Source: Sphaerisporangium sp. TRM90804
GTDB taxonomy: Bacteria > Actinomycetota > Actinomycetes > Streptosporangiales > Streptosporangiaceae
NCBI RefSeq assembly: GCF_029846175.1
Contig: NZ_JARWAC010000021.1
Location: 124,001 to 188,000 of the forward strand
Direction: 5' to 3'
Length of the DNA: 64,000 nucleotides
This document shows, in pieces, positions 29,647 through 46,115 of this stretch (positions are counted from its first letter, which is position 1; every line of letters starts with the position of its first letter). The notes under the pieces are model-generated. The model ran no database searches. It was not told the DNA's origin and saw only the letters and a program-made list of their open reading frames with translations. A program made the translations under genes and the position numbers.

Positions 29647-30723
<1,077 letters not shown>

Positions 30724-30847
30724 GCGGGCCTCGCATCCACGGGCCAATGCTTCTCGGGGACAGCGCCGAAGTGCCCCTGCTCTTCCTCCGCTCCGTCGGT
30801 GGAAGGCCGAGGGCGTTTCGTCACGCCAGGGGCGGCCGGGGTCACCG

Positions 30848-32074
30848 CTACGTGCCGGGCCCGCGGATCTGTCGGTAGGTCTGGCGAAGCTCTCCTGATT
30901 CAGGCAGCTTGCGCCGTTCCACGGCTTCGATCACCTCGGCCACTCTCCAGTGGTTCGACGGCACGAGGAATCCGCTTGACATCGCCTCCAGCGCCATGTG
31001 CCCGGCCTCGTCGAGCTGGTCGTTCGCCAGGAGCGCGAGAGCCAGATCAAGGCGCGCCGACACCGCCCGGCGTGGACGCGGTGGTCCATACGCCGCCGAC
31101 TCCAGCCGTGCCAGCACCTGACGGGCGTACGAGGCGGCGGCCGGATCCCCCAGCCACGCCAGCGTCGTGGCCATGTAAGCGTCGCTCTTGGCGGGGTCGT
31201 ACCGGTAATGGTGTTCTGGGCGATCTGGCCGGGGAAGCGGAGAGACCAGATGAGCGACCCGCTTAAGCGCATCGCGGGTTTCCCGTCCGGCGCCGAGCCG
31301 AGCCCATGCTCGCCCCTCCTGCGCCGTGGCCTGGATGTAGGCGGAGCTGCCCCGGGGCGCCAGCGCCTGTGCGGCTTGCGACAAGGCGACGGCCTGCCGG
31401 TAGTCGCCTCCGGTGAGCACCTGCCATGCCTGGGTCTCCACGCACCACGCGGCGATCTCAGGGTGCTCGGCATGCCGGGCGAGCTGCGCCGCCGTGCGCA
31501 GTCTCGCCGCCCCCGCTGGAAGCCGGCGCAGATCGATGAGGCATGTCCCGGCCAGGAGAGACAGCCAACCGCCGACCACGAGCAGGCGGCGATGCTCGGC
31601 GAGCGTCTTCTTCCCGTCCAAGAGCTTGGACACGTAGGCCAGGTGTCGCCGGACGCGGGACAGCAGCTCGGCCGGGGGCGTCCCCGGGTATGCGATGGCG
31701 AGGTCGTCCGCCGCGATCTCCAGTCGCTCCAGCGTTTCGGCTCCGACCGCACTCGTGGTCGCGCGGTGCGCCAAATCCAACGCGTCGGTCTCGTCATCCA
31801 CCTCACGGTCCGCTGCGTCCCCGTCGCGGAACAGCTCGTCCTCGTCGAGATCCAGCGCCCTGGACAGGAGGACGGGGTAGGGGTCACGGGGGCGGCGGCG
31901 TCCTGACTCCCAATCCTTGAGCTGCCGTTCCATCGACTCGCGAGCCGGAAGACGAGCCCGCGTCCGGGGATCGGCGACTTCGGCCATCCGCCGCACCAGG
32001 TCCCGCTGACTCCACAGCCGTTCGCGACGTTCGGCGCGTATGCGCGCAGCCCATTCGGGAGGGTTCGCGACCAC
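30848..32074 (-). CDS. HTH and TPR-domain regulator
   Basis: 408 residues. The N-terminal part has an XRE-like helix-turn-helix (IRAERRERLWSQRDLVRRMA) and a second conserved element MERQLKDWESGRRRPRDPYP. The remainder is a TPR-like alpha solenoid, visible in LLVVGGWLSLLAGTCLIDLR, GDYRQAVALSQAAQALAP and LALALLANDQLDEAGHMAL. Such proteins are abundant in filamentous actinomycetes, often next to small genes of unknown function, as here. The GTG at 32074 is chosen: GAAGAGG lies about 12 nt upstream, and the sequence beginning VANPPEWAARI is family-typical. Targets unknown. Confidence 0.84.
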   Translation of the reverse strand: MVANPPEWAARIRAERRERLWSQRDLVRRMAEVADPRTRARLPARESMERQLKDWESGRRRPRDPYPVLLSRALDLDEDELFRDGDAADREVDDETDALDLAHRATTSAVGAETLERLEIAADDLAIAYPGTPPAELLSRVRRHLAYVSKLLDGKKTLAEHRRLLVVGGWLSLLAGTCLIDLRRLPAGAARLRTAAQLARHAEHPEIAAWCVETQAWQVLTGGDYRQAVALSQAAQALAPRGSSAYIQATAQEGRAWARLGAGRETRDALKRVAHLVSPLPRPDRPEHHYRYDPAKSDAYMATTLAWLGDPAAASYARQVLARLESAAYGPPRPRRAVSARLDLALALLANDQLDEAGHMALEAMSSGFLVPSNHWRVAEVIEAVERRKLPESGELRQTYRQIRGPGT

Positions 32075-32259
32075 TGGCGTGCACCTCTTCGGCTGGTCGG
32101 ACGGCGAGAAGTCCCTTGCTCTCCTCCAGTCTCCTTGAACGTCACCTGTCTGTCTCGGCGTCTCTCCGGCTGTCATGAGTCGAACGCATCGCGTAAACGA
32201 CGGGACCCGCAGGCGCTGTCACGCCCGACGGGCCCCTTGATCGCATCGGAGTGCGACCC

Positions 32260-32559
32260 ATGCCAAAGCCTAGGATTCATCGCTCGTGCGGTAAGCATCG
32301 CGACGGCACTCCGCCCGCCCGAGTGGTCCCTCGCCGCTTCGACCGGGCGAAGAAGGCCGCCGCCGCGCAGCTTGACCAGTTGGAGCCGTCCTGGCTGGTT
32401 CTGTACGGGGAGTGGACCCGGCAGTTCGTCGCGTTCGCCCGGTGGACGGCCGAGCCGGTGCGGGTCGCCGCGGCCACCGTCGAAGAACTGCGGGAGCTGA
32501 TGCGCGAGGCCGAGCTCAGCGCGATGTTCAGGCACGCCTACGAGTGGGGCGCGGCGTGA
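32260..32559 (+). CDS. small protein of unknown function
   Basis: 99 residues: a basic N-terminus (KPRIHRSCGKHRDG, ARVVPRRFDRAKKAAAAQL) followed by a helical part with WLVLYGEWTRQFVAFARW and ATVEELRELMREAEL. I do not recognise it. ATG at 32260 with GGAG 8 nt before; a GTG at 32251 is possible. Translation of the next gene is coupled (GTGA overlap). Divergent from the HTH-TPR regulator by 185 bp, which suggests it is a target. Confidence 0.6.
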   Translation: MPKPRIHRSCGKHRDGTPPARVVPRRFDRAKKAAAAQLDQLEPSWLVLYGEWTRQFVAFARWTAEPVRVAAATVEELRELMREAELSAMFRHAYEWGAA

Positions 32560-32942
32560 ACGACCAGAGTGGTGCCGATCCTTATGGGATGTCGCCCAAG
32601 GCGCGCCCGTCGGTTGGCGGGTACCTCCCCCCGTCCGGCCGCCCGCTGGTGCCCGCGCAGCGGCCGGTGGTGCCGTTCCTGGCCGGCGTGGTGGCGCGGC
32701 AGATCCACGCCATCGAGCAGACCTACCCGGCGTGGCTGGTGATCCGCCTGGTGGACGAGGACGGTATTCCGGCCGGGTGGGCCGCCACCCGGCACGCGGA
32801 GCTGACCGAGGCGCAGCACACGGCCGGCCTGGTGCCGTCCCTGGCCGCCGACGACGCCGCGGACCTGCTGGCGGCCTTGGCCGTCCAGGACGAGATCGCC
32901 CACCAAACCCGCTACGCCACCGGGTGGGAAGGTCAGGCGTGA
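32556..32942 (+). CDS. small protein of unknown function
   Basis: 128 residues. A proline-rich N-terminal 45 residues (GGYLPPSGRPLVPAQRPVVP) precedes a compact domain: FLAGVVARQIHAIEQTYPAW, LVIRLVDEDGIPAGWAATR, LAADDAADLLAALAVQDEIA. I do not recognise the fold. The GTG at 32556 overlaps the stop of the preceding gene, so the two form one unit. This pair beside an HTH-TPR gene resembles arrangements common in Streptosporangiaceae. Confidence 0.6.
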   Translation: MNDQSGADPYGMSPKARPSVGGYLPPSGRPLVPAQRPVVPFLAGVVARQIHAIEQTYPAWLVIRLVDEDGIPAGWAATRHAELTEAQHTAGLVPSLAADDAADLLAALAVQDEIAHQTRYATGWEGQA

Positions 32943-33071
32943 GTCCGCGCGAGACGGAGCTGGGTGCCGCCGGAGGATACGACGAGCACGGGACGCATGT
33001 CCCAGGAGCCACTCCATCTTGGCGGGCCATATCCGATGCGCCTGTAACGCCATCCCCAGCAGGCTTCGGTC

Positions 33072-33149
33072 CCGGGGATCGGCGACGTCGTCAAGGACGG
33101 CAAGTTCGCCTTCAAGGTCACCAAGACCGAGAGGAAGACCTTTCCGGGG
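33072..33149 (+). pseudogene. DUF4352-like fragment
   Basis: One frame reads PGIGDVVKDGKFAFKVTK then TERKTFPG, matching the start of DUF4352 domains of secreted actinobacterial proteins (GIGDxVxDGKFxFxVT). A stop lies a few codons upstream (about 33045-33047), so no signal peptide is attached, and the domain breaks off after about 26 residues. Seen directly; that it is a relic is inference. Confidence 0.55.
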
Positions 33150-33824
33150 GCCTATCCGGCGGAGTCCTCGACGCGCGGGCTGAGCCCGTATGGCGAGCCG
33201 GTACCTCGCCCCCCCGCGCCGTCACGTCTGGGCGCGGGGGTGGAGTACCGGCCGTGCGGGACTCACCGCGCGAGACGGACTCCGGCGTGCCGGGCGTCCA
33301 GCGGTCCCGGGGTGCGTACGTGTGGCGGGTAGGAAGGCGTGGCCGTCAGGTAATCCAGTGGGCGTCGTGGTCGCGCGTAGGCTCCTTTGTTCGGGTGCGG
33401 TCGTACGCCGTGGGGATGACGGCCGTCCAGATCACCCGATGCGCCGACTCCTGGAGCGGCCTTGCGGAAGGGAGGGCCGGTGCGTGCGGACGGTTCGCGG
33501 CCTCCGGTCCGGGCCCGACGCCCCCTCGTCACGGAGAGTTGCGTGCGCATCGGTGCGCGGAGCGCCGTAACCGGGATGAACAGGAGTTATGCCTCCACTG
33601 CCGGCCATATTCCATCCAGTTTTTCATCTGGTGCGAGCTTTGTCCCTAATGCGAGTTTTGTCGCGGAGGTGAACTGTGGCTCGTGCTCGGCCAAAAGCCC
33701 CGTGCGCTGGGCGAACTCGGCGATCCGGTCCCGGTAACAGGAGGAAGACCCAGTTGGTCTGCTATAGCGATGCCTGCAGCATGGGCGTGGCTTTCCTGGA
33801 ACAATTGGTGAGGCCGCTAAGGTG

Positions 33825-33830
33825 AATACT
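33825..33830 (+). promoter_or_regulatory. -10-like box before the transfer-like operon
   Basis: AATACT, preceded by TG, ends 5 nt before the ATG at 33836 of a 22-codon ORF. It is a candidate operon promoter; no clear -35. Confidence 0.35.
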
Positions 33831-33835
33831 TGACC

Positions 33836-33904
33836 ATGGATGACAGCAACGACAGGAAGACGACAGCGCGCCAGCCAGGGGGATCGGCGCGAGCGGAGGC
33901 GTGA
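33836..33904 (+). CDS. 22-residue leader ORF of transfer-like operon
   Basis: ATG at 33836 opens MDDSNDRKTTARQPGGSARA-EA; its stop TGA (33902-33904) overlaps both possible tcpC starts (GTG 33901, ATG 33904). Such an overlap would couple translation. It is hydrophilic, with no known motif. Reality is uncertain, but two more mini-ORFs with the same kind of overlap occur in this operon. Confidence 0.4.
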   Translation: MDDSNDRKTTARQPGGSARAEA

Positions 33905-34920
33905 TGGCTCGCAGGGCTGATGTCCAGGCCGGTCCTCGGACCGCCGGCGAAGACGAGCATTCGACGTACCCTCCGTCACCCTACGACCCCGATCCCGACC
34001 CCGTCCGAGGCCGGGGGCACGCGCGACGCGGCGGCTGGTCCGGCGGCGGCGGGCGCTGGCTCGTGTGGGCGGGCCGGGCGATCCTGTGGGCGGTGATCCT
34101 GGTGATCGTGGTGAACGGCGTCCGGGCGCCCATCGAGCGCATGACCCAGGGGGCCGAGCCCTCCACGGTGTCGACCACGCCGTCCGGCAGCGGGTTCCCC
34201 GAGGGCGCGGCGGCGGCGTTCGCCAACCAGTTCGCGTCCGCCTACCTCAACTTCGACGGGTCGAAACCGGATGACCGGGCCGAGCGGCTGAAGCCGTTCC
34301 TGCCCGTGGGCGCCGAGACCCAGTTCGGATGGAACGGCTTCGGCCGCATGTCCGCGGGCACCTTCCAGTTCGACGGCATCGAGCTCATCGACGCGCAGAA
34401 CGCCGTCGTCACGGTCTTCGCGCAGTCGGGCGCGCAGCGCCTGCGGCTGTCGGTGCCCATCTACTACGCCGACGGCAGGTTCGTCGTCTCCGGTCAGCCC
34501 GCCCTGCTGCCCGGCGGCGCTCCCGCCGACCTTCCCCAGCCCCCCGCGCCCGAGCGTGACGACGTCACCGAGAGCGAGCTGCGCCCGCAGCTGGAGGGCT
34601 TCTTCAAGGCCTACGCCGCCGGCGACGCCACGCAGCTGCAGCGCTACGTCGTGCAGGGCGTGACGCTCGACGGCTTCCAGGGCAAGGTCACGCTGGCCGA
34701 GCTCAACACCGTCATCGCACCGCCCGGCGGCACCACACGCGAGGTCACCGCCGTGGTCGTCTGGGCCCTGGCGGGCCCGACCCCGGCGCCCACCGCGACG
34801 TCCGCCGACCCCGCCGCCCAGGAGGGCAGTCTGGAGCAGTCGTACCGCCTCTCCATGGAGAAGCAGGGCGACAACTGGTACGTCAAAGACATTCGCGGCG
34901 CATCCAGGTCCACAGAGTGA
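33904..34920 (+). CDS. TcpC-like conjugal transfer protein
   Basis: 338 residues. A cytosolic Pro/Asp/Gly-rich N-terminus (about 50 residues), one membrane helix (LVWAGRAILWAVILVIVVNG) and an extracytoplasmic part made of two NTF2-like domains: FANQFASAYLNFDG to VSGQPALLPGG, then QLEGFFKAYAAGDATQLQRY to QGDNWYVKDIRG. This is the layout of TcpC/VirB8-type scaffold proteins of Gram-positive transfer systems. ATG at 33904 has GGAGG 4 nt upstream; GTG at 33901 is the alternative. First structural gene of the operon. Confidence 0.85.
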   Translation: MARRADVQAGPRTAGEDEHSTYPPSPYDPDPDPVRGRGHARRGGWSGGGGRWLVWAGRAILWAVILVIVVNGVRAPIERMTQGAEPSTVSTTPSGSGFPEGAAAAFANQFASAYLNFDGSKPDDRAERLKPFLPVGAETQFGWNGFGRMSAGTFQFDGIELIDAQNAVVTVFAQSGAQRLRLSVPIYYADGRFVVSGQPALLPGGAPADLPQPPAPERDDVTESELRPQLEGFFKAYAAGDATQLQRYVVQGVTLDGFQGKVTLAELNTVIAPPGGTTREVTAVVVWALAGPTPAPTATSADPAAQEGSLEQSYRLSMEKQGDNWYVKDIRGASRSTE

Positions 34921-34960: not shown

Positions 34961-35032
34961 GTGCGACGAACACGGGCAGGCCCGGAACCGGGTCCGCGCG
35001 ATCATAAGCAGGAGGACGAGAGTTGGTTCTGA
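34961..35032 (+). CDS. 23-residue ORF coupled to the next gene
   Basis: GTG at 34961 with a strong ribosome site AAGGAGG 10 nt upstream; the peptide begins MRRTRAGPEPGPRDHKQ and ends ESWF. Its last four codons overlap the TTG start of the next gene at 35023. The perfect ribosome site with nothing else to serve is the main evidence that it is translated. Too short for domain recognition. Confidence 0.5.
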   Translation: MRRTRAGPEPGPRDHKQEDESWF

Positions 35033-35310
35033 ACATCATCGTGGAGAACGCCCTGGCGCTCGTGACGCCGACGGCGCCGCCGACCGGCGGCGTGAACACC
35101 GAGGGGCTCGCGGACTTCCTCCGGAGGTTCTTCGCCCCGCTGTTCCTCGTGGTCGTCTCCGTAGTCGCGATCTTCTTCCTCTTCACCCGCGAGATCACCC
35201 GCTTCGTCCAGTTCATCATCCTGGCCGTCGCGATCGGCGTGATCTTCTACGTGCCCAACGTCATCGAGGTGACGGCCAAGGCGATCGCGGGAGCGCTCGG
35301 CATCAAGTGA
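35023..35310 (+). CDS. TcpD-like small membrane protein
   Basis: 95 residues with two hydrophobic helices (about 37-55, APLFLVVVSVVAIFFLF, and 62-80, VQFIILAVAIGVIFYVP) separated by a short basic loop, and a short hydrophobic C-terminal helix. This matches the small two-helix TcpD-type proteins found between TcpC and TcpE in Gram-positive transfer systems; a VirB2/TrbC-like pilin is a looser alternative. The unusual TTG start is supported by GGAGG 7 nt upstream (35011-35015). Confidence 0.72.
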   Translation: MVLNIIVENALALVTPTAPPTGGVNTEGLADFLRRFFAPLFLVVVSVVAIFFLFTREITRFVQFIILAVAIGVIFYVPNVIEVTAKAIAGALGIK

Positions 35311-35348: not shown

Positions 35349-38300
35349 GTGGACCTGCCTACCTATACGAATATCTGGCGCATTGAGAAGCGGCTCTACA
35401 AGCTGTACGACCTCCGGCTGCCGATGCCGCTTCCGATCGTCTGGATCGGCGTGTTCGTGGGCGTGCTGGTCCCGTGGTCGCTCCTTCTCCGCGTCGTCGG
35501 GGTTCCCTTCGACGCGCCCTGGCACGTCTTCTACCTGGTGCCGCCCGGCCTGGTGACCTGGCTGGCCACCCGGCCGGTGATCGAGAGCAAGCGGCTCAAC
35601 GAGCTGCTGCAGTCCCAGCTCCGCTACGTCGGAGAGCCGCGGGCCTGGTGCCGCCTCGCGCCGGTCGAGGAGCCCGACGAGATCACCTTCACCGCCCGCG
35701 TGTGGCGGGCCGCTCCCGGCACCGCCGCGGTGGCCGCCGCCGACGAGTTCGCGCTCGCGAGTGCCGCCAAGGCGCGGCGCGGCGCCCGCGCGAAGCCCAA
35801 GCACACGGCTCCGCGCCGCAGGCCGCTGGAGGCGTGGGCCTCCCGCCAGCCGGCGTCCGTCAAGCCGTCCGTGCGCCCCGGCGAGGTGCGCCCCGTCGTG
35901 GCCGCGGCCGCGGCGGCGGTGACCACGCTGGCGCCGCCCGAGCGGCCCGCGCGCCTCCCCGAGCGCCGCCTGGCCCGGGGCACCGCGACGGCCGAGTCCG
36001 CCGTCGGCCTGCCTGCCGCCCTCCCGCTTCCCGGCGAGATCCCCACCCTCGCCCGCCCGGCCCCCGGCGCCCGCCCCGCGATCTCGCCCCCGGCGGTCGC
36101 GCCACCCGTGGCCGAGCCGCCCGCCGCCATGCCGCCCGAGGTCGCGGCACGCGCCGTCCTGCCGCCCGCGGTGACGCCGCCCGCGGTCGCGCCGCCGACC
36201 GTCGCGCCAGGTGCCGTCCTGCCGCCCGCGGTCGCGCCGCCCACCGTCATGCCGCGCGCGGCCGAGTCGCCCGCCGTCGCGTCGCGTTCCGTGATGCCGC
36301 CCGCGGTCGCGCTGCCGACCGTCGCGCCAGGTGCCGTAACGTCGCGCGCGGTCTCACCACACACGGTCATGCCGCCCGAGGTCGAGTCGCCCGCCGTCGT
36401 GTCACGTGCCGTCCTGCCGCCCGCCGTCTCGCCCCCGGCCGTCGCGCCGCCCGCGGTCACGCGGCCCTCGGCCACCTCGCCCGCCGCGGGGCCGCCCGCG
36501 TCATCGCCGCCCGCGGTGACGCCGCCGGTCGCCGCGTCACCAGGGGTGACGTCGTCGGGCATGAGTTCGACCCCCGCGCCCGCGTCCCCGTCGCAGGCGC
36601 CCGCGCCGTCGGCCGCGGGCTCCCCGCCCGGGGCGCCGATCGGCACGGAGGCGCTACGCCGGCTGCGCAGGCTCGCGGCGTCCGCGGAGGCGCCCAGGCC
36701 GACCGCGCGTCCGGCGCGGGCGCAGTCCGCGAGCGGCGGGTACGGCGAGGCCGGACGTCCGGCGGCGCCCGAGCGGGCCTCCACCCCGAGCGAGACGCCC
36801 AAGGCGCCCGAGAGGGAGGTCGAGGTCCGCGAGCAGCACCGCAAGGGGCAGCCGCCGCGCGCCGGCGCCCCCGTCCGCTCGCCCGAGGCCCGCACCGTCT
36901 GGCCCACCGCACGCACCGCCTCCGAGGCCCGGCCGCCCAGCCCCGAGCCCCAGGGGGCCGAGGCCGAGCGTCAGCCGTCCCTACCCGAGCGTCAGCCGTC
37001 CCTACCCGAGCGCCAGTCGTCCGTGGTGCCAGGGCGTCAGTCGTCCGTGCCTGAGCGCCAGCCGTCCCTTCCCGAGCGTCAGTCGTCCGTGCCTGAGCGC
37101 CAGCCGTCCCTTCCCGAGCGTCAGCCGTCCGTGCCTGAGCGTCAGCCGTCTCCGCCTGAGCGGCAGCCGTCGCGTCCCGAGACCCGGCCGGCCGCGCCCG
37201 AGCGGGCGCCGTCCCGGCCGGCGGCGCAGCCGTCGTGGCCCGAGCAGGCGCCGACCAGGCGGGAGGCCGAGCCGGCCCGGCCGGAGCGTGGGCCGTCCCG
37301 GCCCGAGGCGCTGCCGTCCGTGGGGGCGCCCGCGCCCCGGCAGGGCGCGCCGAGGGGGCCGTTGCGGCCGGCCGCGCGTGAGACGGCGGGCCCGCTGTCC
37401 ATCCGCAAGATGCCCGGGGGCTCCGGCGCGACCGCCGACCCCGCGGCGCCGTCCGTGCCCGTGCCGGTTCCCCGCCCGGGGGACGAGCCCAGGGTGCGCC
37501 GCGTCGAGTCGGTGGTCGGCCGCGACCAGACGGGCGGGTGGCGGCGCCTGGCGCAGGTCGTGGTGGGCGGCGGCGCGCCGACCCGCCACGACGGCATCGT
37601 GGCCGACGAGGTCAGGGCGGCCACCGAGTTCACCGGCAGCCGCCGCGTCATGGTGCTGGGATGCACCGGCGGCGCCGGGCAGACCACCACCGCGCTCATG
37701 TTGGGGCACACCTTCGCCCGCCACCGCGACGACCGCGTGCTCGCCGTGGACGCCAACACCGGCGACAACACGATGACCGACCGCATCGACGCCGAGTCGC
37801 CCGAGTCGCTGACCTCCCTGCTCGCCGGCCTCGACGGCGTCAGCGGCTACCTCAGCATGCGCACCTACACCACCCGGTGCGACTCCGGCCTGGAGGTCGT
37901 CGGGTCCGACTCCGACGCCGCCGCGGCCCGGCGGCTCGCCGACCGGGGCCTGTTCTCCGACCAGCGGCTCGCCCAGGCCATGCGGGTGCTCGACCGGCAC
38001 TACAGCGTCATCCTGGTCGACCCCGCCGCCTCGGTGGCGGCCCGCATGCTGCCGTACGCCGACCAGCTCATCCTGGTCGCGCCGGCCAGCGAGGACGCCC
38101 CCGAGGCCGTCGCGATGACGTTCGACTGGCTCGACGGACACGGGTCGAACGCTCTTCGCCAGCGGGCGATCATGGTGATCAACGGCGTCAGCAGGCGGAG
38201 CATGGGCGGCGTGGAGCAGGCCGAGGCGGTGGCGCGCGGCCGGTGCCGCGCCATCGTCCGCGTCCCCTGGGACGACGAGCTGGCACCCGGGCAGCCCGGC

Positions 38301-38420
38301 CCGGCCGACCCCGCGCACCTGCGGGCCCAAGGGCGCAGGGCGTACGTCGCCCTGGCGGGAGTTGTGGCAAGCGGCCTGGCGGCGGCGAGCCGCCCGAGCG
38401 AGGAGGAAGTGGCTCAGTGA
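35349..38420 (+). CDS. TcpE domain fused via proline-rich linker to MinD/ParA-like domain
   Basis: 1023 residues. Residues 1-120 are TcpE-like: TNIWRIEKRLYKLYDLRLPM, two adjacent membrane helices (LPIVWIGVFVGVLVPWSLLL; APWHVFYLVPPGLVTWLA), then RRLNELLQSQ-type sequence (here KRLNELLQSQLRYVGEPRAW). Residues about 195-690 are low-complexity: PPAVAPPTVAPG-like repeats, then seven-residue SLPERQP repeats. Residues about 740-1010 are a SIMIBI ATPase fold: VMVLGCTGGAGQTTTALM (P-loop, 772-781), AVDANTGDNTMTDR, and VILVDPAAS with D891. The P-loop reads TGGAGQTT where MinD has KGGVGKTT, so both lysines are missing (Q778). ATP hydrolysis is therefore doubtful. GTG start with GAGGAGG upstream. The VirB4 gene follows. 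Confidence 0.83.
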   Translation: MDLPTYTNIWRIEKRLYKLYDLRLPMPLPIVWIGVFVGVLVPWSLLLRVVGVPFDAPWHVFYLVPPGLVTWLATRPVIESKRLNELLQSQLRYVGEPRAWCRLAPVEEPDEITFTARVWRAAPGTAAVAAADEFALASAAKARRGARAKPKHTAPRRRPLEAWASRQPASVKPSVRPGEVRPVVAAAAAAVTTLAPPERPARLPERRLARGTATAESAVGLPAALPLPGEIPTLARPAPGARPAISPPAVAPPVAEPPAAMPPEVAARAVLPPAVTPPAVAPPTVAPGAVLPPAVAPPTVMPRAAESPAVASRSVMPPAVALPTVAPGAVTSRAVSPHTVMPPEVESPAVVSRAVLPPAVSPPAVAPPAVTRPSATSPAAGPPASSPPAVTPPVAASPGVTSSGMSSTPAPASPSQAPAPSAAGSPPGAPIGTEALRRLRRLAASAEAPRPTARPARAQSASGGYGEAGRPAAPERASTPSETPKAPEREVEVREQHRKGQPPRAGAPVRSPEARTVWPTARTASEARPPSPEPQGAEAERQPSLPERQPSLPERQSSVVPGRQSSVPERQPSLPERQSSVPERQPSLPERQPSVPERQPSPPERQPSRPETRPAAPERAPSRPAAQPSWPEQAPTRREAEPARPERGPSRPEALPSVGAPAPRQGAPRGPLRPAARETAGPLSIRKMPGGSGATADPAAPSVPVPVPRPGDEPRVRRVESVVGRDQTGGWRRLAQVVVGGGAPTRHDGIVADEVRAATEFTGSRRVMVLGCTGGAGQTTTALMLGHTFARHRDDRVLAVDANTGDNTMTDRIDAESPESLTSLLAGLDGVSGYLSMRTYTTRCDSGLEVVGSDSDAAAARRLADRGLFSDQRLAQAMRVLDRHYSVILVDPAASVAARMLPYADQLILVAPASEDAPEAVAMTFDWLDGHGSNALRQRAIMVINGVSRRSMGGVEQAEAVARGRCRAIVRVPWDDELAPGQPGPADPAHLRAQGRRAYVALAGVVASGLAAASRPSEEEVAQ
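36130..37180 (+). repeat. coding repeats in proline-rich linker
   Basis: Two arrays inside the linker. From about 36130 to 36480 alternating Pro/Ala/Val units such as PPAVAPPTVAPGAV recur. From about 36966 to 37170 a 21-bp unit encodes SLPERQP or SVPERQP, with up to nine copies. Frame preserved throughout. Confidence 0.8.
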
Positions 38421-38458
38421 CGACGAAGCGAGCCCGGCGCGGGGAACGGGTCGTCTGA
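38417..38458 (+). CDS. 13-residue ORF bridging TcpE-MinD and VirB4 genes
   Basis: GTG at 38417 overlaps the preceding stop (GTGA), and the TGA at 38456-38458 overlaps the VirB4 ATG (TGATG). Peptide: MTTKRARRGERVV. The ribosome site AGGAGGAAG lies about 10 nt before this GTG, while the VirB4 ATG has no good site of its own. Ribosomes may therefore translate the mini-ORF and reinitiate. Confidence 0.5.
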   Translation: MTTKRARRGERVV

Positions 38459-40941
38459 TGGCGAGATCGTCGCGGTCCAGGAGCAGGCTGGCGGTCCGCT
38501 ACTTCGACGACCGCATCCTCCTCACCGACTCCTCGGCATGGGCGTACTTCCGCCTGCCGACGGTGAGCTACGAGTTCGTCACGGCCGAGGAGCGGGAGGC
38601 GCTGGCCACCAACATCACCATCGCCCTGGCCGCCATCCGCATGCCCGACGCCGAGGTGCACCTGCGGGTGGCGCACCGCGCCTATCCGGCCGCCGAGTGG
38701 GCGATGGCGCTCAACGCCACCTCCGACGAGGGGGAGGGCTGGCGCGACTACCTGGAGGAGATGTACCGGCACGTCTGGGCCAAGGACTTCTGGAGCAAGG
38801 AGGTCTACCTCGGCGTCCGCCTCGGCCCGCGCGGCGCCCAGCTAGGCACCGGCGTGCTCGCGCAGCTCTTCGGCTTCTACCAGCGCGGTGAGAAGGCCCT
38901 GGGCCTGGAGGACGACCACGTCCCCGACGGCGAGCTGGAGAAGTGGACCAACCAGGCCGAGCGCCTGGGCCGGGCCCTGGCCTCCAGCGCCCTGTACGCC
39001 CGCCACGCCACCTCCGGGGAGATCGCCTGGCTGTTCCGGCACGCGGCGTCCGGCTCGCTCGGCGACCCGCCGGCGTCGGCCTCGCCCACCAGGCGGTGGG
39101 GCCAGGGCGAGATCGAGTCGCTGGTCGAGGGCCAGATCCACAACGGCCGCTCGTTCCTGCGCATCCAGCAGCCGGCGGGCGACTCCTACGTCGCGCACCT
39201 GTCGTTCGCCCGGTTCCCCGACCTGATGCCGTTCCCCGACGGCGAGCCCTGGCTGCACTTCATCGACCAGTTACCGTTTCCCGTCGAGGTCAGCTCGCGG
39301 ATGCGCCTGATCCCGCCGATCAAGGCCAGCAAGGACGTCGCGCGCAAGCTCGCGCACGCCAGGGACATGGACATCCACATCCGCGAGGCGGGAGCCGAGG
39401 CGCCGATCGCGCTGGCCGAGCAGATCGACGCCGCCCGCATGCTGGAACACGGCATCACGAAGGAGCGCCTGCCCTTCGTCTACGGCTGGCACCGTCTCAT
39501 CGTGGCCGCGCCGACCGAGGAGATGTGCCTTCAGCGTGTCGAGGCGGTGGTCGAGCACTACCGCGACATGGGCATCGACATCGTCAACTCCACGGGCGAC
39601 CAGTTCTCGCTGTTCTGCGAGGCGCTGCCGGGCGAGCGCGTGCGGGTCAACGCCTATGCCCAGCGCCAGCCGCTGCGCACCATCGCGGGCGGCATGGCCA
39701 CGGCCACCGTCGACCTCGGCGACCGCGTCGACGAGACCACGTCCGGCTGGGCCGGGCCCTACATCGGGGAGACGCTGGGGCGCGCCCGCTCGATCGTCCA
39801 CTTCGACCCGCTGGTGGCCGCGACGCGCAACCGGCCGACGGCCATCGCGATCACCGGCGAGCCCGGCGGCGGCAAGACGACGCTCGCGCTGCTGCTCATC
39901 TACCAGATGGCGGTGCGTGGCGTCACGGTCGCGGTGATCGACCCCAAGGGGGACGCCGAGTCGCTGGTGCAGCTCCTGCAGAAGCGCGGGCGCAAGGCCA
40001 GGGTGATCCCGCTGGGCTCGGCCGCGCCGGGCCTGCTCGACCCGTTCTCCTTCGGCGACGACATCGCGGCCAAGAAGACCATGGCGACCGAGACCCTCCG
40101 CCTGCTGCTGCCGCGCATGTCGGAGGAGCGCGAGTCGGCGATGATCCAGGCGGTCTCCACAGTCTCCAACCAGCCGAGCCCCTCGCTGGGGCGGGTCGTC
40201 GACCACCTGGAGCAGGCCGAGGACCCCGCGTCCAAGAACCTCGGCGCGGTGCTGCGCTCGATGTCGGAGATGCGGCTCGCGCGGCTGTGCTTCGACCCCT
40301 CCGGCGGCGACAACATCGACACCGAGGGCTGGACCACCGTGTTCACGCTGGGCGGCCTCACGCTGCCCGACGTCACCACCACCAGGGACGACTACTCCTA
40401 CGAGCAGCGCCTGTCGGTCGCCATCCTCTACCTGGTGTCGCAGTTCGCCAGGCGGCTGATGAACGGCCTCGACCGGCGCACGCCCAAGGCGATCTTCCTC
40501 GACGAGGCGTGGGCGATCACGTCCACGCCCGAGGGCGCCAAGCTGGTGCCCGAGGTGTCGCGCATGGGCCGGTCGAGGAACACCGCGCTGGTGCTGGTCT
40601 CGCAGAACGCCGGCGACCTGCTGAACGAGCAGGTCACCAACTGTCTCTCCTCGGTGTTCGCCTTCCGCTCGACCGAGCGGGTGGAGGTGGAGCACGTGAT
40701 GGCGCTGCTGGGGGTGGAGCCGTCGGAGGAGCACAAGGCGGCGTTGCGGGCGCTGGGCAACGGCGAGTGCATCTTCCGCGATCTCGACGGGCGTGCCGGC
40801 CGCATCGGCGTGGACCTCATCTCCGAGGACCTACTGCGCTGGCTGGACACCAACCCCACCCATGACAGACCCGGCGAGAGCGCGCAGCGCTCCTCCGGGC
40901 CGGCGGGCAGGTCCGGGGCTGTACAGGAGGTGCGGTCATGA
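38458..40941 (+). CDS. VirB4-like ATPase
   Basis: 827 residues. The N-terminal half is the VirB4/TraC-type domain (VRYFDDRILLTDSSAWAYFR, then RLPFVYGWHRLIVAAP). The C-terminal half is a RecA-like ATPase: Walker A ITGEPGGGKTTLAL with K473, VAVIDPKGDAESLV, Walker B AIFLDEAWAI with D682/E683, then ALVLVSQNAGDLLN and a C-terminal arginine-rich lobe. VirB4 powers assembly and transport in type IV secretion. The reading frame extends upstream, but the ATG at 38458 gives the natural N-terminus and overlaps a mini-ORF. The next gene overlaps by 4 bp (ATGA). Confidence 0.9.
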   Translation: MARSSRSRSRLAVRYFDDRILLTDSSAWAYFRLPTVSYEFVTAEEREALATNITIALAAIRMPDAEVHLRVAHRAYPAAEWAMALNATSDEGEGWRDYLEEMYRHVWAKDFWSKEVYLGVRLGPRGAQLGTGVLAQLFGFYQRGEKALGLEDDHVPDGELEKWTNQAERLGRALASSALYARHATSGEIAWLFRHAASGSLGDPPASASPTRRWGQGEIESLVEGQIHNGRSFLRIQQPAGDSYVAHLSFARFPDLMPFPDGEPWLHFIDQLPFPVEVSSRMRLIPPIKASKDVARKLAHARDMDIHIREAGAEAPIALAEQIDAARMLEHGITKERLPFVYGWHRLIVAAPTEEMCLQRVEAVVEHYRDMGIDIVNSTGDQFSLFCEALPGERVRVNAYAQRQPLRTIAGGMATATVDLGDRVDETTSGWAGPYIGETLGRARSIVHFDPLVAATRNRPTAIAITGEPGGGKTTLALLLIYQMAVRGVTVAVIDPKGDAESLVQLLQKRGRKARVIPLGSAAPGLLDPFSFGDDIAAKKTMATETLRLLLPRMSEERESAMIQAVSTVSNQPSPSLGRVVDHLEQAEDPASKNLGAVLRSMSEMRLARLCFDPSGGDNIDTEGWTTVFTLGGLTLPDVTTTRDDYSYEQRLSVAILYLVSQFARRLMNGLDRRTPKAIFLDEAWAITSTPEGAKLVPEVSRMGRSRNTALVLVSQNAGDLLNEQVTNCLSSVFAFRSTERVEVEHVMALLGVEPSEEHKAALRALGNGECIFRDLDGRAGRIGVDLISEDLLRWLDTNPTHDRPGESAQRSSGPAGRSGAVQEVRS

Positions 40942-43757
40942 GACGCAGCGCGGGCTCGAAGAAGCCGGGACGGCGCGTCGCGCGCCTGCGGCGCAGGGCG
41001 CTGGTCGTGCTGGCGATCCTCGCCAGCGTGCTGGTGGTGCCGATCGCGTTCTCGACCGTCACCGCCGGCGCGGCTGCGCCGTGCGACCTGTCGCCCGACC
41101 TGGCGCCCGAGATGGTCGGCGGCGGCGTCGACGGGCTGGTCAAGCCGCCGCTGCCCGACGACGCCCCGCAGGGCGCCGACGGCGCCGGGCAGGTGCGGCC
41201 GCCCGCCGCGGGGGAGCCGATCACCAACTACGAGCGGTACGGCATGGCCGGCCAGTTCTGGCACACCTACGACCTCGGCTGCACCGACGTCGCGGCCGTG
41301 CTCGGCAACGCCTGGGCCAACACGGTGTTCTCCTGGGCCAAGGCCATCGACCGCATGACGATCACCACCTACCAGGCGGCGGCGACCGAGGGACCGCTCC
41401 AGTCGATCAAGGACATGGTCGACGACATCGTCATCAACCTCGCCGACGCCATGTACTGGCCGTACCTTCGCGTGATCATCCTGCTCGCGGCCGTCTGGCT
41501 CGCGTGGTACGGGCTGATCCGCAAGCGCGCAAGCACGACGGCCGAGGGCGTGATCTGGATGATCCTCGCCGTCACGGTCGCGGTGTGGTTCTTCAGCCGC
41601 CCCGGCGACTTCACCGGCGTCGGCAAGACCGTCACCGACAAGACCGGCGAGATCGTCAACTCGGCGTTCAGCGGCCTGCCCGGCGCCGGGGGGGCGTCCT
41701 GCCTGCCCGGCAAGGGCGAGGCCAACGCCAAGGTGGCCCCCGGCGGGTACGGCCAGACCGGCACGCCGGGCGTCGACCAGAACGCCGACGCGCTGTGGTC
41801 GACGCTGGTCTGCAAGCCGTGGCTGATGGGCGAGTTCGGCACCGCCGACCCCAAGGCGCCCGTGGTCGCCGTGATGGGGCCGAAGGTGCTGGACATCCAG
41901 GCCACCGACGTCCAGGAACAGTCCAGCGGCCAGAAACCCGACTCCGGCGCGCACCAGGCGAGGTTCGAGCAGGAGGTCGCCAAGCCGCTGGAGAGCACCG
42001 CGATGTTCTTCCTCTTCCAGGGGAAGGACTGGACCAGCCGGCTCGGCATCGCGATCGGCGCCCTGCTGGCGGCCATGGTCGCGGGCGTGCTGATCTTCCT
42101 GGTGGCCGTCTCGCTGATCGCGCTCAAGATCGGCTTCTTGCTGCTGCTCATACTCGGGCCGGTGTTCCTGCTGATCGGCGTCCATCCGGGCACCGGACGC
42201 ATCATCGCCATGCGCTGGGTCGAGATGCTGGTCGGCACGCTGCTGAGACAGGCGGTGCTGGCGCTCGTCCTCGGTGTGCTCGTGTACGGCTACGCGCTGA
42301 TCATCTCCACGAACCTCCCGTGGGGCATGCAGATCATGTTCATCGCGCTGCTGACCATCGCCGTGTTCTTCTACCGGCGCCCCTTCCAGCACCTGTTCGC
42401 GTCCATGGACGGCCACACGCTCGCCACGAGGATGCTCGGCGAGGCGGCCTCCGCGCCCACGCTTTCGCGGGCCGCGAACGCGCTGCCGCCGGTCGCGGCG
42501 GCGCGCATGGGCCGCTGGGGGCTGCGCAAGGCGGAGCCGCTCGTCAACGCGGCGGCCATGGCGGGCGGCGGCGCGGCGGCCACCGCCGCGTCGGTGGCCC
42601 AGGGCCGCGTCAGGGGCGAGGAGGGCGGTCCCGGAGGGGCCCAGCAGGGCGGCCGGGTGCCGGCGGGCGGTCAGCCGATGCCGCTGGACGCCGACGGCCA
42701 GGCGGGCGTGCGGCGCAAGGCCACCGGTCGCGGCATCGCGGTCGCGCGCCCGGGGGCGGCCCCGCCGCTCAACCTGTCGGGACGGCCCGGCGGTCCCGGA
42801 GCGCCTTCGGGGCGCAACGGCGCTGACGGCGTCTCGGTCGGCCCCCGCACCGGCGGCGCCGGGGTGCCGTCCGGCCCGCGCGCGGGCGGCGGCGCGGCCG
42901 GCACCGGGCGCACCGGCGGGGCGGGCAGCGGGCCGGGGTCCCGGCCGACCGTTCGCACGGGCGGCGGCTCGGGCGGAGGCGGCGGGTCGACGGTCGGAAG
43001 CTGGTTCGGCGGCAGGCCCGGCGGAGGCTGGGCGTCCCGCTCGCCGGGCGGCTCCTCCGGCTCCACAGGTTCTTCCGGCGGGTCCGGCGGGGCGTCGGGC
43101 GGCGGCTCTGGCCGCGGGTCCGACGGCCAGGCGCCCAGGGGGCCGCGCACGACGGCGGGCGGGCCGCGCGGCTCGTCCGGCGGCGGTTCCGCGGGCGGCC
43201 TGTTCGGCTCCTCGGGCGGCGGCCGGTCCTCGGGCGGGGCCTCGTCGTCATCGGGCGGCTCCTCGGGCGGCCTCTTCGGCTCCGGGGGCTCAGGCGGCTC
43301 CGGGCGGTCCTCAGGCGGCTCCTCCGGCGGTTCGCCCGGCCGGTCGCCGGGGCGTTCCGGCGGGAGCCTCTTCGGCGGCTCGGGCAGTTCGGGCGGCTCC
43401 GGTGGCTCGGGCCGGTCGTCGGGCGGGTCCGGGCGTTCTTCGGGCGGTTCGCAGGGCGGGTTCTTCGGGCGGTCCTCGGGCGGGTCGTCCGGCGGCTCCT
43501 CGGGCGGCTTCTTCGGCCGGTCCCAGGGCGGGTCGTCCTCGGGCAGGGGGGCGGGCGGTTCGTCCGGCCGGTCCTCCGGCGGTTCGCAGGGCGGGTCGTC
43601 CGGCGGCGGGCCGGGCCCGTTCTCCGGCGGCGGAGGCGGCAGGTCGGGCTCCGGCGAGGCTCCGCCGCTGTGGCTGCCCCCGCGCCCTCAGTCCGGACGC
43701 GGTGACGACGAGGGCGCGCCGTTCTGGTTGCGGCCCCCCAACCGCGACGAGGGCTGA
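40938..43757 (+). CDS. VirB6/TrbL-like polytopic membrane protein with Gly/Ser-rich tail
   Basis: 939 residues. Signal-like hydrophobic stretch at 21-45 ending AGAAAPCD, an extracytoplasmic segment, membrane pairs near 172-195 and 207-225, a long Cys-containing loop, then four helices between about 370 and 485 (LGIAIGALLAAMVAGVLIFL; LIALKIGFLLLLILGPVFLL; and two more). This resembles the VirB6/TrbL inner-membrane channel of transfer systems. From about residue 560 the chain is low-complexity, ending in some 250 residues of GGSSGGSSGGSGRSSGG-type sequence and a short hydrophilic end. Not a standard feature of VirB6. Confidence 0.8.
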   Translation: MRRSAGSKKPGRRVARLRRRALVVLAILASVLVVPIAFSTVTAGAAAPCDLSPDLAPEMVGGGVDGLVKPPLPDDAPQGADGAGQVRPPAAGEPITNYERYGMAGQFWHTYDLGCTDVAAVLGNAWANTVFSWAKAIDRMTITTYQAAATEGPLQSIKDMVDDIVINLADAMYWPYLRVIILLAAVWLAWYGLIRKRASTTAEGVIWMILAVTVAVWFFSRPGDFTGVGKTVTDKTGEIVNSAFSGLPGAGGASCLPGKGEANAKVAPGGYGQTGTPGVDQNADALWSTLVCKPWLMGEFGTADPKAPVVAVMGPKVLDIQATDVQEQSSGQKPDSGAHQARFEQEVAKPLESTAMFFLFQGKDWTSRLGIAIGALLAAMVAGVLIFLVAVSLIALKIGFLLLLILGPVFLLIGVHPGTGRIIAMRWVEMLVGTLLRQAVLALVLGVLVYGYALIISTNLPWGMQIMFIALLTIAVFFYRRPFQHLFASMDGHTLATRMLGEAASAPTLSRAANALPPVAAARMGRWGLRKAEPLVNAAAMAGGGAAATAASVAQGRVRGEEGGPGGAQQGGRVPAGGQPMPLDADGQAGVRRKATGRGIAVARPGAAPPLNLSGRPGGPGAPSGRNGADGVSVGPRTGGAGVPSGPRAGGGAAGTGRTGGAGSGPGSRPTVRTGGGSGGGGGSTVGSWFGGRPGGGWASRSPGGSSGSTGSSGGSGGASGGGSGRGSDGQAPRGPRTTAGGPRGSSGGGSAGGLFGSSGGGRSSGGASSSSGGSSGGLFGSGGSGGSGRSSGGSSGGSPGRSPGRSGGSLFGGSGSSGGSGGSGRSSGGSGRSSGGSQGGFFGRSSGGSSGGSSGGFFGRSQGGSSSGRGAGGSSGRSSGGSQGGSSGGGPGPFSGGGGGRSGSGEAPPLWLPPRPQSGRGDDEGAPFWLRPPNRDEG
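43060..43620 (+). repeat. Gly/Ser-coding low-complexity tract
   Basis: About 560 bp of irregular repeats (GGCGGCTC, TCGGGCGG and similar) encoding SSGGSSGG and GGSGGSGRSSGG. Frame-preserving and extremely GC-rich. Confidence 0.8.
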
Positions 43758-43759
43758 GC

Positions 43760-44428
43760 ATGGCGCAGGTCAACGACCGGCGAGGGCTCGCCTTCGCCGG
43801 AGTGGTCGTGGCGCTGGCGGCCGTCGGCGTCTACCTGTCCATGCGGCCCGCCGCGAGCGGCCCTGGGGACGAGGGGCCGGCCGGCCGCACGGCGGTGATC
43901 TCCGAGGGCACCCCGGCGCCGCCGTCCTCGACGGCGCCGTCGCCCGCGCCCGCCGTCTCGCCGGGCTCGTTCGACATCTACCGCTACCTGCCGTTGTCCA
44001 GGCAGCAGATCGCCCAGGCCGCCGACGTGGCCCAGCGGTTCGCCGTCTCCTACGCGACGTTCCGCCACGACGAGGACCCCGCGACCTACGCCGATCGCCT
44101 CAAGGCGTTCACGACCCTTGAGCTCGGCAGCGTGCTCGCGCGCGACGTCACCACGCCGGCGACGGTGGAGCAGAACCGCGCCCAGAAGATCGTCTCCCAG
44201 GGGTCGGCCCAGGTGAAGAGGATCCGCAACATCGACGAAGGGTCGATCGTCTTCGTGGTGACCTCCCTGCAGCGCATCACCGCCGAGGCCGGCCCGCGGC
44301 AGCTCAGCACCGACTACGCGATCACGCTCACCCAGGTGGGCACCGAGTGGCGGGTGTTCGACATGCAGCCCGCCGAGGCCGGGCAGGACGGGGACACCGG
44401 AGGCGCCGGCGACGGGATCGTGCAGTGA
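43760..44428 (+). CDS. single-pass VirB8/NTF2-like protein of the transfer operon
   Basis: 222 residues. One membrane helix near residues 9-27 (GLAFAGVVVALAAVGVYLSM), a Pro/Ser linker, then an extracytoplasmic domain: DVAQRFAVSYATFRHDEDPA, YADRLKAFTTLELGSVLARD, and a strand region ending YAITLTQVGTEWRVFDMQPA. That is the order of a small NTF2/VirB8-like domain. I infer a structural role beside the VirB6-like protein. Two bp after the previous stop; its own stop overlaps the next start (GTGA). Confidence 0.7.
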   Translation: MAQVNDRRGLAFAGVVVALAAVGVYLSMRPAASGPGDEGPAGRTAVISEGTPAPPSSTAPSPAPAVSPGSFDIYRYLPLSRQQIAQAADVAQRFAVSYATFRHDEDPATYADRLKAFTTLELGSVLARDVTTPATVEQNRAQKIVSQGSAQVKRIRNIDEGSIVFVVTSLQRITAEAGPRQLSTDYAITLTQVGTEWRVFDMQPAEAGQDGDTGGAGDGIVQ

Positions 44429-45504
44429 CGTCGCGGGTGCGCCTCGCGCTGCTGATCGGGCTCGCGGGCGTCGTCCTCACCACGCTCATCATGGCGCCGA
44501 TGCTGATGAGCACCTTCCCGTCCTTCCTCGGCGGCGGCATCACCACCGACTGCGACGACACCGTGACGGACGTCACCAACGTCTCCGACACCGCGCAGTC
44601 CGACATCCCCGGCGAGTACCTGAGCCTGTACAAGAAGTGGGGCAAGGAGATCGGGGTCCAGTGGACCGTGCTCGCCGCCGTGGGCAAGCGTGAGACCGAC
44701 CACGGCCGCTCCAACCTCCAGGGCGTGAAGAGCGGCACGAACTTCGCCGGCGCCGCGGGTCCCATGCAGTTCCTGATCAGCACCTGGGGCGGCAAGGCCA
44801 AGATCAAGATCCCGTCGAAGTTCAACGGCTACGCCTCCGACGGCGACGACGACGGCGTGGCCGACGTCTACAATCCCGCCGACGCGATCCTGGGCGCCGC
44901 CAAGATGCTCAAGCGCAACGGCGCCCCGAGCGACGTCACGCGCGCGCTCTTCGCCTACAACCACGCCATGTGGTACGTCGAGCAGGTGCTGGTCATCGCC
45001 AGGAAGTACGCCGTCGACGGCACGCTGGAGGTGCCCCCGGACGACGACCCCGCCTGCGACCCGCCGCTGGTCGACGCCGCCCCGAGCGAGGTCGTCAAGG
45101 AGATCCTGGAGTACGCGCTCGCCCAGCGCGGCAAGCCCTACCGCTGGGGGGGCACCGGGCCGCAGGGCTACGACTGCTCGGGCATCATCTACATGGCCTA
45201 CCGCTCGGCCGGGCTGTCGATCCCGCGCACCACGTTCGGCCAGTGGCCGTTCGGCGTGAAGATCTCCAAGGGGGACGAGCAGGCGGGCGACCTGGTCTTC
45301 TTCAACTCCGGGCCGGGCACCTCCGCCAACAACCCCGGCCACGTCGGGATGGTGGTCTCTCCCGGCAAGATGATCGAGGCCAGGTGCACGCTCTGCGGGC
45401 CCATCAAGGTGACCACCTACCGCGACCGGCCGAACATCGTCGGCTACACCCGCCCGCTGGAGAACCGCACGGTCGTCGACCAGCTCAAGCGCATCGGCGT
45501 GTGA
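44425..45504 (+). CDS. lytic transglycosylase and NlpC/P60 peptidoglycan hydrolase
   Basis: 359 residues, membrane-anchored or secreted. N-terminal helix LALLIGLAGVVLTTLIMAPM, a transglycosylase domain at about 65-195 with the probable catalytic E90 in GKRETDHG, AGPMQFLISTWG and YNPADAILGAAKML, then an NlpC/P60 domain from about 225: GKPYRWGGTGPQGYDCSG with nucleophile C251, and NNPGHVGMVV with H306. Such two-domain hydrolases (VirB1/CwlT-like) open the wall for transfer machines. The GTG at 44425 overlaps the previous stop; an open frame continues upstream. Last gene of the operon. Confidence 0.9.
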   Translation: MTSRVRLALLIGLAGVVLTTLIMAPMLMSTFPSFLGGGITTDCDDTVTDVTNVSDTAQSDIPGEYLSLYKKWGKEIGVQWTVLAAVGKRETDHGRSNLQGVKSGTNFAGAAGPMQFLISTWGGKAKIKIPSKFNGYASDGDDDGVADVYNPADAILGAAKMLKRNGAPSDVTRALFAYNHAMWYVEQVLVIARKYAVDGTLEVPPDDDPACDPPLVDAAPSEVVKEILEYALAQRGKPYRWGGTGPQGYDCSGIIYMAYRSAGLSIPRTTFGQWPFGVKISKGDEQAGDLVFFNSGPGTSANNPGHVGMVVSPGKMIEARCTLCGPIKVTTYRDRPNIVGYTRPLENRTVVDQLKRIGV

Positions 45505-45645: not shown

Positions 45646-46035
45646 ATGGAGACGATTGTTGTGGCGGCGGCCATCATCGAGGGGGGCAGGCTTCTCGCGG
45701 CCCAGCGCGCCGGTCCGCCGGCGATGGCGGGAGGCTGGGAGTTCCCCGGCGGCAAGGTGGATCCGGGGGAGAACGACCATCAGGCGCTGGTCCGGGAGTG
45801 TCAGGAGGAGCTCGGCGTCCTGATCGACGTGGGCGCCCGCATCGGCGGCGACTGGCCGCTCATCCCCGGATACGTGCTGCGGGTCTGGCGGGCCCGGCTC
45901 AGCTCGGGCGTTCCGCACCCCCATGAGCACTTGGCCTTGCGCTGGCTGGAGCGTGACGAACTCTACGACATCCCATGGCTGCCCGCCGACCTGCCGATTG
46001 TGAAAGCTGTACAAGATCTGGTCTGCGAAGGCTGA
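45646..46035 (+). CDS. NUDIX hydrolase, MutT-like
   Basis: 129 residues, MutT size. Nudix box GGKVDPGENDHQ then ALVRECQEELGV (residues 34-57) has the full GX5EX7REUXEEXGU pattern. EFPGGK and the WLERDELYDIPWLPADLPIV C-terminus resemble 8-oxo-dGTP/CTP pyrophosphatases. It hydrolyses an NDP-linked substrate, plausibly oxidised nucleotides. Single gene with its own probable leaderless start, between the transfer operon and the two exported proteins. Confidence 0.92.
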   Translation: METIVVAAAIIEGGRLLAAQRAGPPAMAGGWEFPGGKVDPGENDHQALVRECQEELGVLIDVGARIGGDWPLIPGYVLRVWRARLSSGVPHPHEHLALRWLERDELYDIPWLPADLPIVKAVQDLVCEG

Positions 46036-46115
46036 TCTCCGGCCCCCTGTGAGATAACGGCTACACAGCGTGACGAGTTTGTCGCGAAGTGCAACGGGGG
46101 AACGGGGATGGTGTA

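Follow-up and report, generated by a model that had tools for sequence, protein, structure and literature searches.

A TcpE-MinD fusion with a degenerate nucleotide site in a probably domesticated conjugation-type machine of the Streptosporangiales

Conjugation machines are usually regarded as belonging to plasmids. What, then, is a chromosomal gene doing that joins a membrane subunit of such a machine to a MinD-type domain stripped of its P-loop lysines? The question is raised by a 64,000-nt stretch of the genome of Sphaerisporangium sp. TRM90804 (assembly GCF_029846175.1, contig NZ_JARWAC010000021.1, positions 124,001 to 188,000 of the forward strand), referred to below as the window, whose numbering is used for all coordinates. 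The gene encodes a TcpE domain, a long Pro/Ala-rich linker and a degenerate MinD domain, and it lies within a cluster of genes for a type IV secretion system (T4SS) of the MPF_FA/Tcp type (Table 1). We consider it probable that this locus is a domesticated, vertically inherited machine of the Streptosporangiales, in which TcpE, as a VirB3-type subunit, bears a pseudo-ATPase MinD domain on a long disordered arm.

The fusion itself is real. A first-pass annotation of the window had described a TcpE subunit joined by a long proline-rich linker to a MinD/ParA-fold domain, and each of these parts is recovered. The N-terminal region belongs to the TcpE family PF12648, scoring 70.8 bits against a curated cut-off of 29.9, and residues 769-910 match the ParA/MinD-type family AAA_31 (Pfam 4.9e-6, at the cut-off). 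An AlphaFold2 model of the TcpE region, of low confidence (pTM 0.40), places helices at residues 4-20, 28-50, 59-79 and 83-95. The last three of these may correspond to the two transmembrane helices and following helix expected of VirB3, a small protein, whereas the chain here has 1023 aa; the weak model had zero matches in the PDB at E ≤ 0.001. The position is also that of virB3, since the fused gene lies directly upstream of virB4 in all 62 syntenic loci (named loci; of 80 fetched, the 18 shorter than 20 kb were dropped).

The linker (22% Pro, 20% Ala) consists partly of ERQPS-like and PPAV-like units and varies from 248 to 969 residues across homologues, with a median of 558.5 (202 protein records, i.e., those passing a filter on start and P-loop). 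Within this otherwise variable region a basic stretch, PIGTEALRRLRRLAASAE (residues 430-447; 36636-36689), is kept in 14 aligned rows, one of them out of register, and could be a docking or membrane-binding helix. Between the linker and the P-loop, residues R717, R718, E720, V722, G724-D726 and G729-R733 are invariant in 14 rows. A loose GWR-type motif occurs in 21 of 24 fused domains and 15 of 22 unfused relatives, and is thus not confined to the fusion.

Both P-loop lysines are replaced and the Walker B aspartate is kept, as the first-pass annotation had read from this one gene. The KGGxGK[TS] signature of deviant Walker A ATPases is absent, with T773 at the signature position and Q778 at the Walker A position. 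Among homologues of residues 740-1015, Gln occupies the Walker A position in 121/121 records (the best 120 of 962 matches; the 121 include the query and the query's own database copy), and a search with a distant copy, from the Spirillospora/Actinomadura side, gave 120/120 (the best 120 of 821). In genomic DNA, 112 of 112 fused copies have the Gln together with the Walker A' and Walker B aspartates (D801 and D891 here) that mark MinD/ParA ATPases. At the signature position, motif strings give Thr in 111 of these copies and Ala in one. The lysine loss is conserved, and no fused orthologue with an intact KGGxGKT loop was found in these sets.

The domain is nevertheless predicted to have a MinD/ParA fold of the SIMIBI class, the outcome on which its earlier assignment depended. 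A match to its fold is PDB entry 3fkq, which we take to be TadZ. TadZ is a MinD-like protein with a degenerate nucleotide site that serves a pilus machine and is said to localise that machine to a pole. It belongs to a different machine and, to our knowledge, is not fused to a membrane subunit.

An alignment of 24 fused and 22 unfused domains separates what is particular to the fusion from what is not (a motif search gave no P-loop for two unfused domains, from Rhodococcus and M. adipatum). From the Walker B aspartate on, each of the 24 fused domains has DPAA or DAAA, and its next conserved aspartate follows after 13 residues. The unfused relatives have exactly DCGTG in 15/22 and a near variant in most others; 17 of the 22 have 17 residues to that aspartate, the remainder 14, 15, 20, 20 and 24. 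The switch I Asn that replaces the second Asp of DxD is not specific to the fusion (23/24 fused, 17/22 unfused). Nor are the relatives uniformly canonical: the Walker A residue is Lys in 21/22 and Arg in one, and the signature residue is Lys in 20/22, Asn in one and Gly in one. Loss of the signature Lys is the weaker argument, because StbB-like conjugation proteins carrying SGXXGK[T/S] have been described (PMC3098194) and two of the 22 unfused relatives also lack it; the weight is therefore carried by the change from Lys to Gln at Walker A and by the change in switch II. The sequence supports the earlier reading of the domain as a pseudo-ATPase, and the altered switch II strengthens it; on our reading the domain would probably neither bind nor hydrolyse ATP.

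In a FastTree phylogeny of 46 domains (273 columns), the 24 fused tips form a single clade with support 1.0. These sequences would be explained most simply by a single fusion event in an ancestor, accompanied by loss of the site and conserved from then on.

If the machine were a conjugative element, its presence should be patchy and its position variable. Of 150 genomes of the order, 146 have TcpE (a single copy in 142, two copies in four), and all 39 genera are represented among them. In a class-wide draw it was found in 21 of the family's 22 genomes and in 0 of 224 others. The TcpE-negative genomes are one from a family labelled f3 (G002) and three assemblies of 470-740 contigs; in one of these assemblies (G013), a 700-aa frame still encodes the fused-type MinD part. 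Two of the 146 positive genomes are also of f3, and carry an unfused, short TcpE beside a distant VirB4. In these two loci (L156 and L157, in G004 and G006) the VirB4 is ~24% identical, and they represent a different Tcp-type element, perhaps a mobile one, in another family of the order. The fused-type MinD domain (at least 316 bits) is present in 58 of 61 genomes, the remaining three being of f3, and those 58 also have VirB4 at no less than 78% identity. A single gene order holds in all 62 syntenic loci. TcpC, the small membrane protein, the fused gene, VirB4, the 222-aa gene, the wall hydrolase and the NUDIX gene are matched in each of them, VirB6 in 56 and the upstream ychF in 50.

Genes for DNA transfer are distributed differently. 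No VirD4-type coupling gene was recognised among 25 frames of the window that we chose (the FtsK type was not searched), and no relaxase among the same frames (families beyond MobF and Replic_Relax were not searched). Across the same 61 genomes, MobF was found in 20, TraG-D_C in 42 (some matches weak) and Replic_Relax in 33, and the machine is present without any of the three in eight (G010, G015, G027, G029, G034, G042, G048 and G051); these genes therefore do not travel with the machine. In the genome of TRM90804 itself, TraG-D_C gives a single weak match, on contig C3, and the Replic_Relax match also lies on C3, off the contig of the fused gene. A MobF-type match with an internal stop (G000, contig C15, 29822-30619, minus strand) likewise lies off that contig.

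Table 1. Features of the fused gene and the surrounding locus, in window coordinates.
Feature	Position	Strand	Remarks
Fused gene, TcpE (VirB3-type) - Pro/Ala-rich linker - degenerate MinD domain	35349..38420	+	1023 aa; stop codon included in coordinates
TcpE domain, residues 5-102	35361..35654	+	Pfam 1.4e-19
Pro/Ala-rich repetitive linker, residues 121-715	35709..37493	+	
Conserved pre-P-loop stretch with GGWRR, about residues 717-745	37497..37583	+	
P-loop GCTGGAGQTTT, residues 771-781	37659..37691	+	T773 at signature Lys, Q778 at Walker A Lys
Walker A' D801 and switch I N803	37749..37757	+	
Walker B D891 and altered switch II DPAAS	38019..38033	+	most unfused relatives DCGTG
ychF, housekeeping flank	29647..30723	+	50/62 loci
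TcpC (VirB8-type)	33901..34920	+	Pfam PF12642 2.9e-16; 62/62 loci
Small membrane protein, TcpD place	35023..35310	+	weak TcpD match, E 0.045, 13.9 bits vs cut-off 100; 62/62 loci
VirB4/TcpF-type ATPase, P-loop GEPGGGKT	38458..40941	+	Pfam AAA_10 2.9e-66; 62/62 loci
VirB6/TrbL-type, Gly/Ser-rich tail	40938..43757	+	Pfam TrbL 3e-9; 56/62 loci
222-aa conserved protein	43760..44428	+	no Pfam match; 62/62 loci
SLT + NlpC/P60 wall hydrolase (VirB1/CwlT-type)	44347..45504	+	Pfam NLPC_P60 1.1e-20; 62/62 loci
NUDIX gene, far end of conserved block	45646..46035	+	putative part of machine; 62/62 loci

The genes around the fusion provide the clustered VirB1, VirB3, VirB4, VirB6 and VirB8 parts by which an MPF_FA machine is recognised, with the Pfam families TpcC, TcpE, AAA_10, TrbL and NLPC_P60 all above their cut-offs. 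The NCBIfam models are less decisive: the VirB4 protein, for which we selected the ATG at 38458 as the start, matches TcpF at 5.9e-72, yet under the cut-off of the model, and the VirB6 model was matched only below its cut-off. The P-loop of VirB4 is GEPGGGKT in 31 of 36 sequences and another intact GxxGxGKS in four distant ones, and is missing in one fragment. The true start of the wall hydrolase probably lies downstream of 44347. The 222-aa protein resembles, by eye, a second VirB8/NTF2-type subunit. Past the NUDIX gene lie two long Pro/Gly/Ala-rich open reading frames (ORFs) with no Pfam matches (46089-48350 and 48425-49624); the second is matched in 48 of the 62 loci and may encode a cell-surface partner of the machine. 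On the other side, the 3.2 kb between ychF and TcpC (30724-33900) yielded five frames, none of them conserved (matches in at most one of the 62 loci).

Relatives of both halves of the machine occur elsewhere. A separate MinD gene is also present in most searched genomes of the order. In TRM90804 it encodes an 849-aa protein with a low-complexity N-terminus and KGGVGKTT (contig C63, L142), adjoining ORFs that by eye are pheA-like and serS-like. We hand-picked 16 such paralogues out of a larger set of matches; 13 belong to genomes that carry the fused gene and three to f3 genomes that lack it. Of the 16, 15 have KGGVGKTT and one has Arg at Walker A. Actinobacterial MinD/ParA proteins of the same subfamily, presumably those named EspI, often have a low-complexity N-terminus with a GWR-type stretch and lie beside a type VII secretion system (T7SS) or an operon with an SCO6880-family protein; unlike the fused domain, they are separate proteins, mostly with a KGGVGKTT-like loop and DCGTG in switch II. 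Plasmids of Rhodococcus koreensis and Iamia have MinD at the head of a gene run with SCO6880-family, DUF87 or ATP-binding, and TraM-recognition proteins. In two mycobacterial plasmids MinD is flanked by EspG and EccD of a T7SS (EspG-MinD-EccD-MycP). Four other MinD matches that we opened had no machine nearby. A Streptomyces plasmid has VirB4, a long unknown gene and NlpC/P60, with a coupling protein upstream.

Near cousins of the machine occur on plasmids of Nocardiopsis exhalans and Nocardiopsis sp. MT53, where VirB4 is 70-74% identical to that of the window and stands among genes annotated as conjugal transfer proteins, with VirB6-type and SLT genes. Their MinD is separate, has KGGVGKTT and is 32% identical to the window MinD domain. 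Pfam confirms TcpC and an unfused, 169-aa TcpE on the N. exhalans plasmid, which, examined at greater length, also carries a ParA of its own along with MobF and a VirD4-type protein. MOB-suite calls this plasmid (NZ_CP099838.1; L179, L194) "non-mobilizable" despite the annotated MobF, VirD4-type protein and Tcp-type channel. We take the fusion to be derived because of the MinD tree and parsimony, and not because of the VirB4 tree, which was built without one partial genome piece that has no VirB4 frame (L209).

How does this compare with known systems? ICEBs1, Tn916 and the pCW3 Tcp system, all with MPF_FA T4SSs, likewise have VirB8 (TcpC), VirB3 (TcpE), VirB4, VirB6 and VirB1 kinds, and a Bacillus subtilis plasmid has, by its annotation, a like gene order preceded by a DUF87 protein and a replication-relaxation protein. 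Unlike these elements, the present locus is chromosomally fixed, has no recognised coupling or relaxase gene, and has its VirB3 extended by the linker and MinD. In a 2025 review, pCW3 is classed as MPF_FA, TcpE (PF12648) is given as most likely the VirB3 homologue, and VirB3-VirB4 contacts are described (PMC12857230). ParA/MinD proteins, VirC1 of Ti and StbB of R388, have been proposed to deliver DNA to the polar transfer pore (PMC3098194, PMC9905601); both are separate proteins and StbB keeps the Walker A Lys, whereas here the domain is joined to VirB3 and has Gln. The archaeal systems Ced and Ted derive from T4SSs, are chromosomal and have no recognised relaxase; a MinD/ParA ATPase is common in Ted loci (PMC9905601). 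The likeness to both is one of description and not of sequence: Ced imports DNA, and the passages on Ted mention no MinD fusion. The Streptomyces cmdABCDEF operon (SCO4126-4131) is a chromosomal, T4SS-like operon with a VirB4-like ATPase, for which defects in sporulation and chromosome segregation were reported; transfer of an SLP2-derived plasmid was unaffected, in data not shown by the source (PMC2782261). Here too we compare descriptions and not sequences: cmdB and cmdC were reported to resemble SCO6878 and SCO6880, and the passages concerned mention no TcpE/MinD fusion (PMC2782261).

These comparisons qualify the first-pass annotation in calling the arrangement unusual. What is new is the covalent link to VirB3, together with the dead site, but the gene is fixed in the order and no single-genome oddity, and MinD-type partners of conjugation or T7 machines are already known (VirC1, StbB, Ted and the mycobacterial T7SS loci). 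The kinds of component are known as well; the part that seems new is the order-wide fusion of VirB3 and pseudo-MinD in a probably domesticated machine, of which our searches of the open-licence literature found no report.

A mechanism can be proposed. Because TcpE is likely VirB3 and VirB3 contacts VirB4 (PMC12857230), the MinD domain would lie near VirB4 on a tether of the lengths given above: with TcpE at the foot of VirB4, it would be kept on the cytoplasmic side, close to the VirB4 ring. A MinD partner of conjugation may have been fused to VirB3 in this lineage and its nucleotide site then lost, so that the domain would no longer cycle between monomer and dimer on ATP and would act instead as a constant docking or adaptor module. 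This is the natural reading because a tethered partner need not find the pore by an ATP cycle. The module's own partner may be DNA, VirB4 or the separate paralogue with intact lysines. What it docks to VirB4 would most likely be chromosomal DNA or a DNA-bound partner, possibly that paralogue; alternatively, it may anchor the machine at a given site within the hypha. By analogy, such a machine would serve the host and not a plasmid, either in chromosome handling during hyphal growth or sporulation, as for cmd, or in DNA exchange, as for Ced and Ted. We lean slightly toward chromosome handling, since these actinomycetes grow as hyphae and mostly form spores. In its full form, the proposal is of an unrecognised, vertically inherited host machine, a T4SS without its plasmid parts whose VirB3-borne pseudo-MinD would sit beside VirB4 as a permanent receptor for DNA or a partner, so that tethered, ATP-independent delivery takes the place of the ATP-driven step of conjugation and serves chromosome movement or DNA exchange between cells; we put this forward only tentatively.

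Several points weigh against a domesticated machine with a pseudo-ATPase on its VirB3 arm. The case for TcpE as VirB3 draws on a review together with gene order and helix topology, and the TcpE model is weak. The VirB4 tree leaves plasmid versus chromosome ancestry unsettled for Nocardiopsis (node supports 0.585 and 0.763). One stop was counted inside the VirB4 match in each of G008, G044 and G023, and one inside the MinD match in each of G046, G028, G020, G044 and G037. Finally, by analogy with NosGet3d, which has Arg at Walker A and keeps residual ATPase activity (PMC10248533), the Gln might still permit weak ATP binding.

Four alternatives to this preferred reading deserve weighing. A bacterial counterpart of Ced and Ted, taking up or exchanging DNA between hyphae and using the MinD module to receive DNA on its way in or out, is possible, if on the unlikely side. 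It would be in keeping with the relaxase-less, chromosomal nature of those systems, the MinD/ParA ATPase common in Ted loci (PMC9905601) and the wall hydrolase retained here, but the conserved block showed no recognisable nuclease, pilin or competence gene.

It is unlikely that the domain still binds ATP, with no or very slow hydrolysis, as an ATP-locked dimerisation or sensing module. Gln gives no charge to hold phosphates, the signature Lys is gone and switch II is altered in 24/24. The retention of D801 and D891 in every copy is what such binding would predict, as is the NosGet3d precedent, and the 57 positions of the domain that are invariant across 33 rows go beyond the needs of a bare spacer.

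Rather unlikely is a machine that secretes a protein, effector or developmental, with the MinD module as substrate receptor. The same MinD family does occur in the T7SS loci of the two mycobacterial plasmids, but no substrate gene was recognised in the block, in the absence of a dedicated test.

That the locus still sits in a mobile element (an integrative and conjugative element or a plasmid remnant), with the fusion a plain conjugation part, is highly improbable: the core MPF_FA mating-channel parts and the Nocardiopsis cousins, one with MobF and VirD4, speak for it, but its fixation, invariant gene order and low copy number, the lack of a recognised relaxase or coupling gene in the locus, and the patchiness of those families in the order speak against it.

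A domesticated machine with pseudo-MinD on its VirB3 subunit would have several implications. In this order of soil actinomycetes, a conjugation-type machine appears to be nearly as fixed as a housekeeping gene. The fusion may serve as a "Rosetta stone", suggesting that the MinD-type partners found beside some actinobacterial T4SSs and T7SSs act at VirB3/VirB4. With the site lost in one lineage and kept in relatives, the domain offers a clean means of telling the scaffold role of a MinD partner apart from its ATP cycle. A machine for moving plasmids seems to have been taken over for a job in the cell itself.

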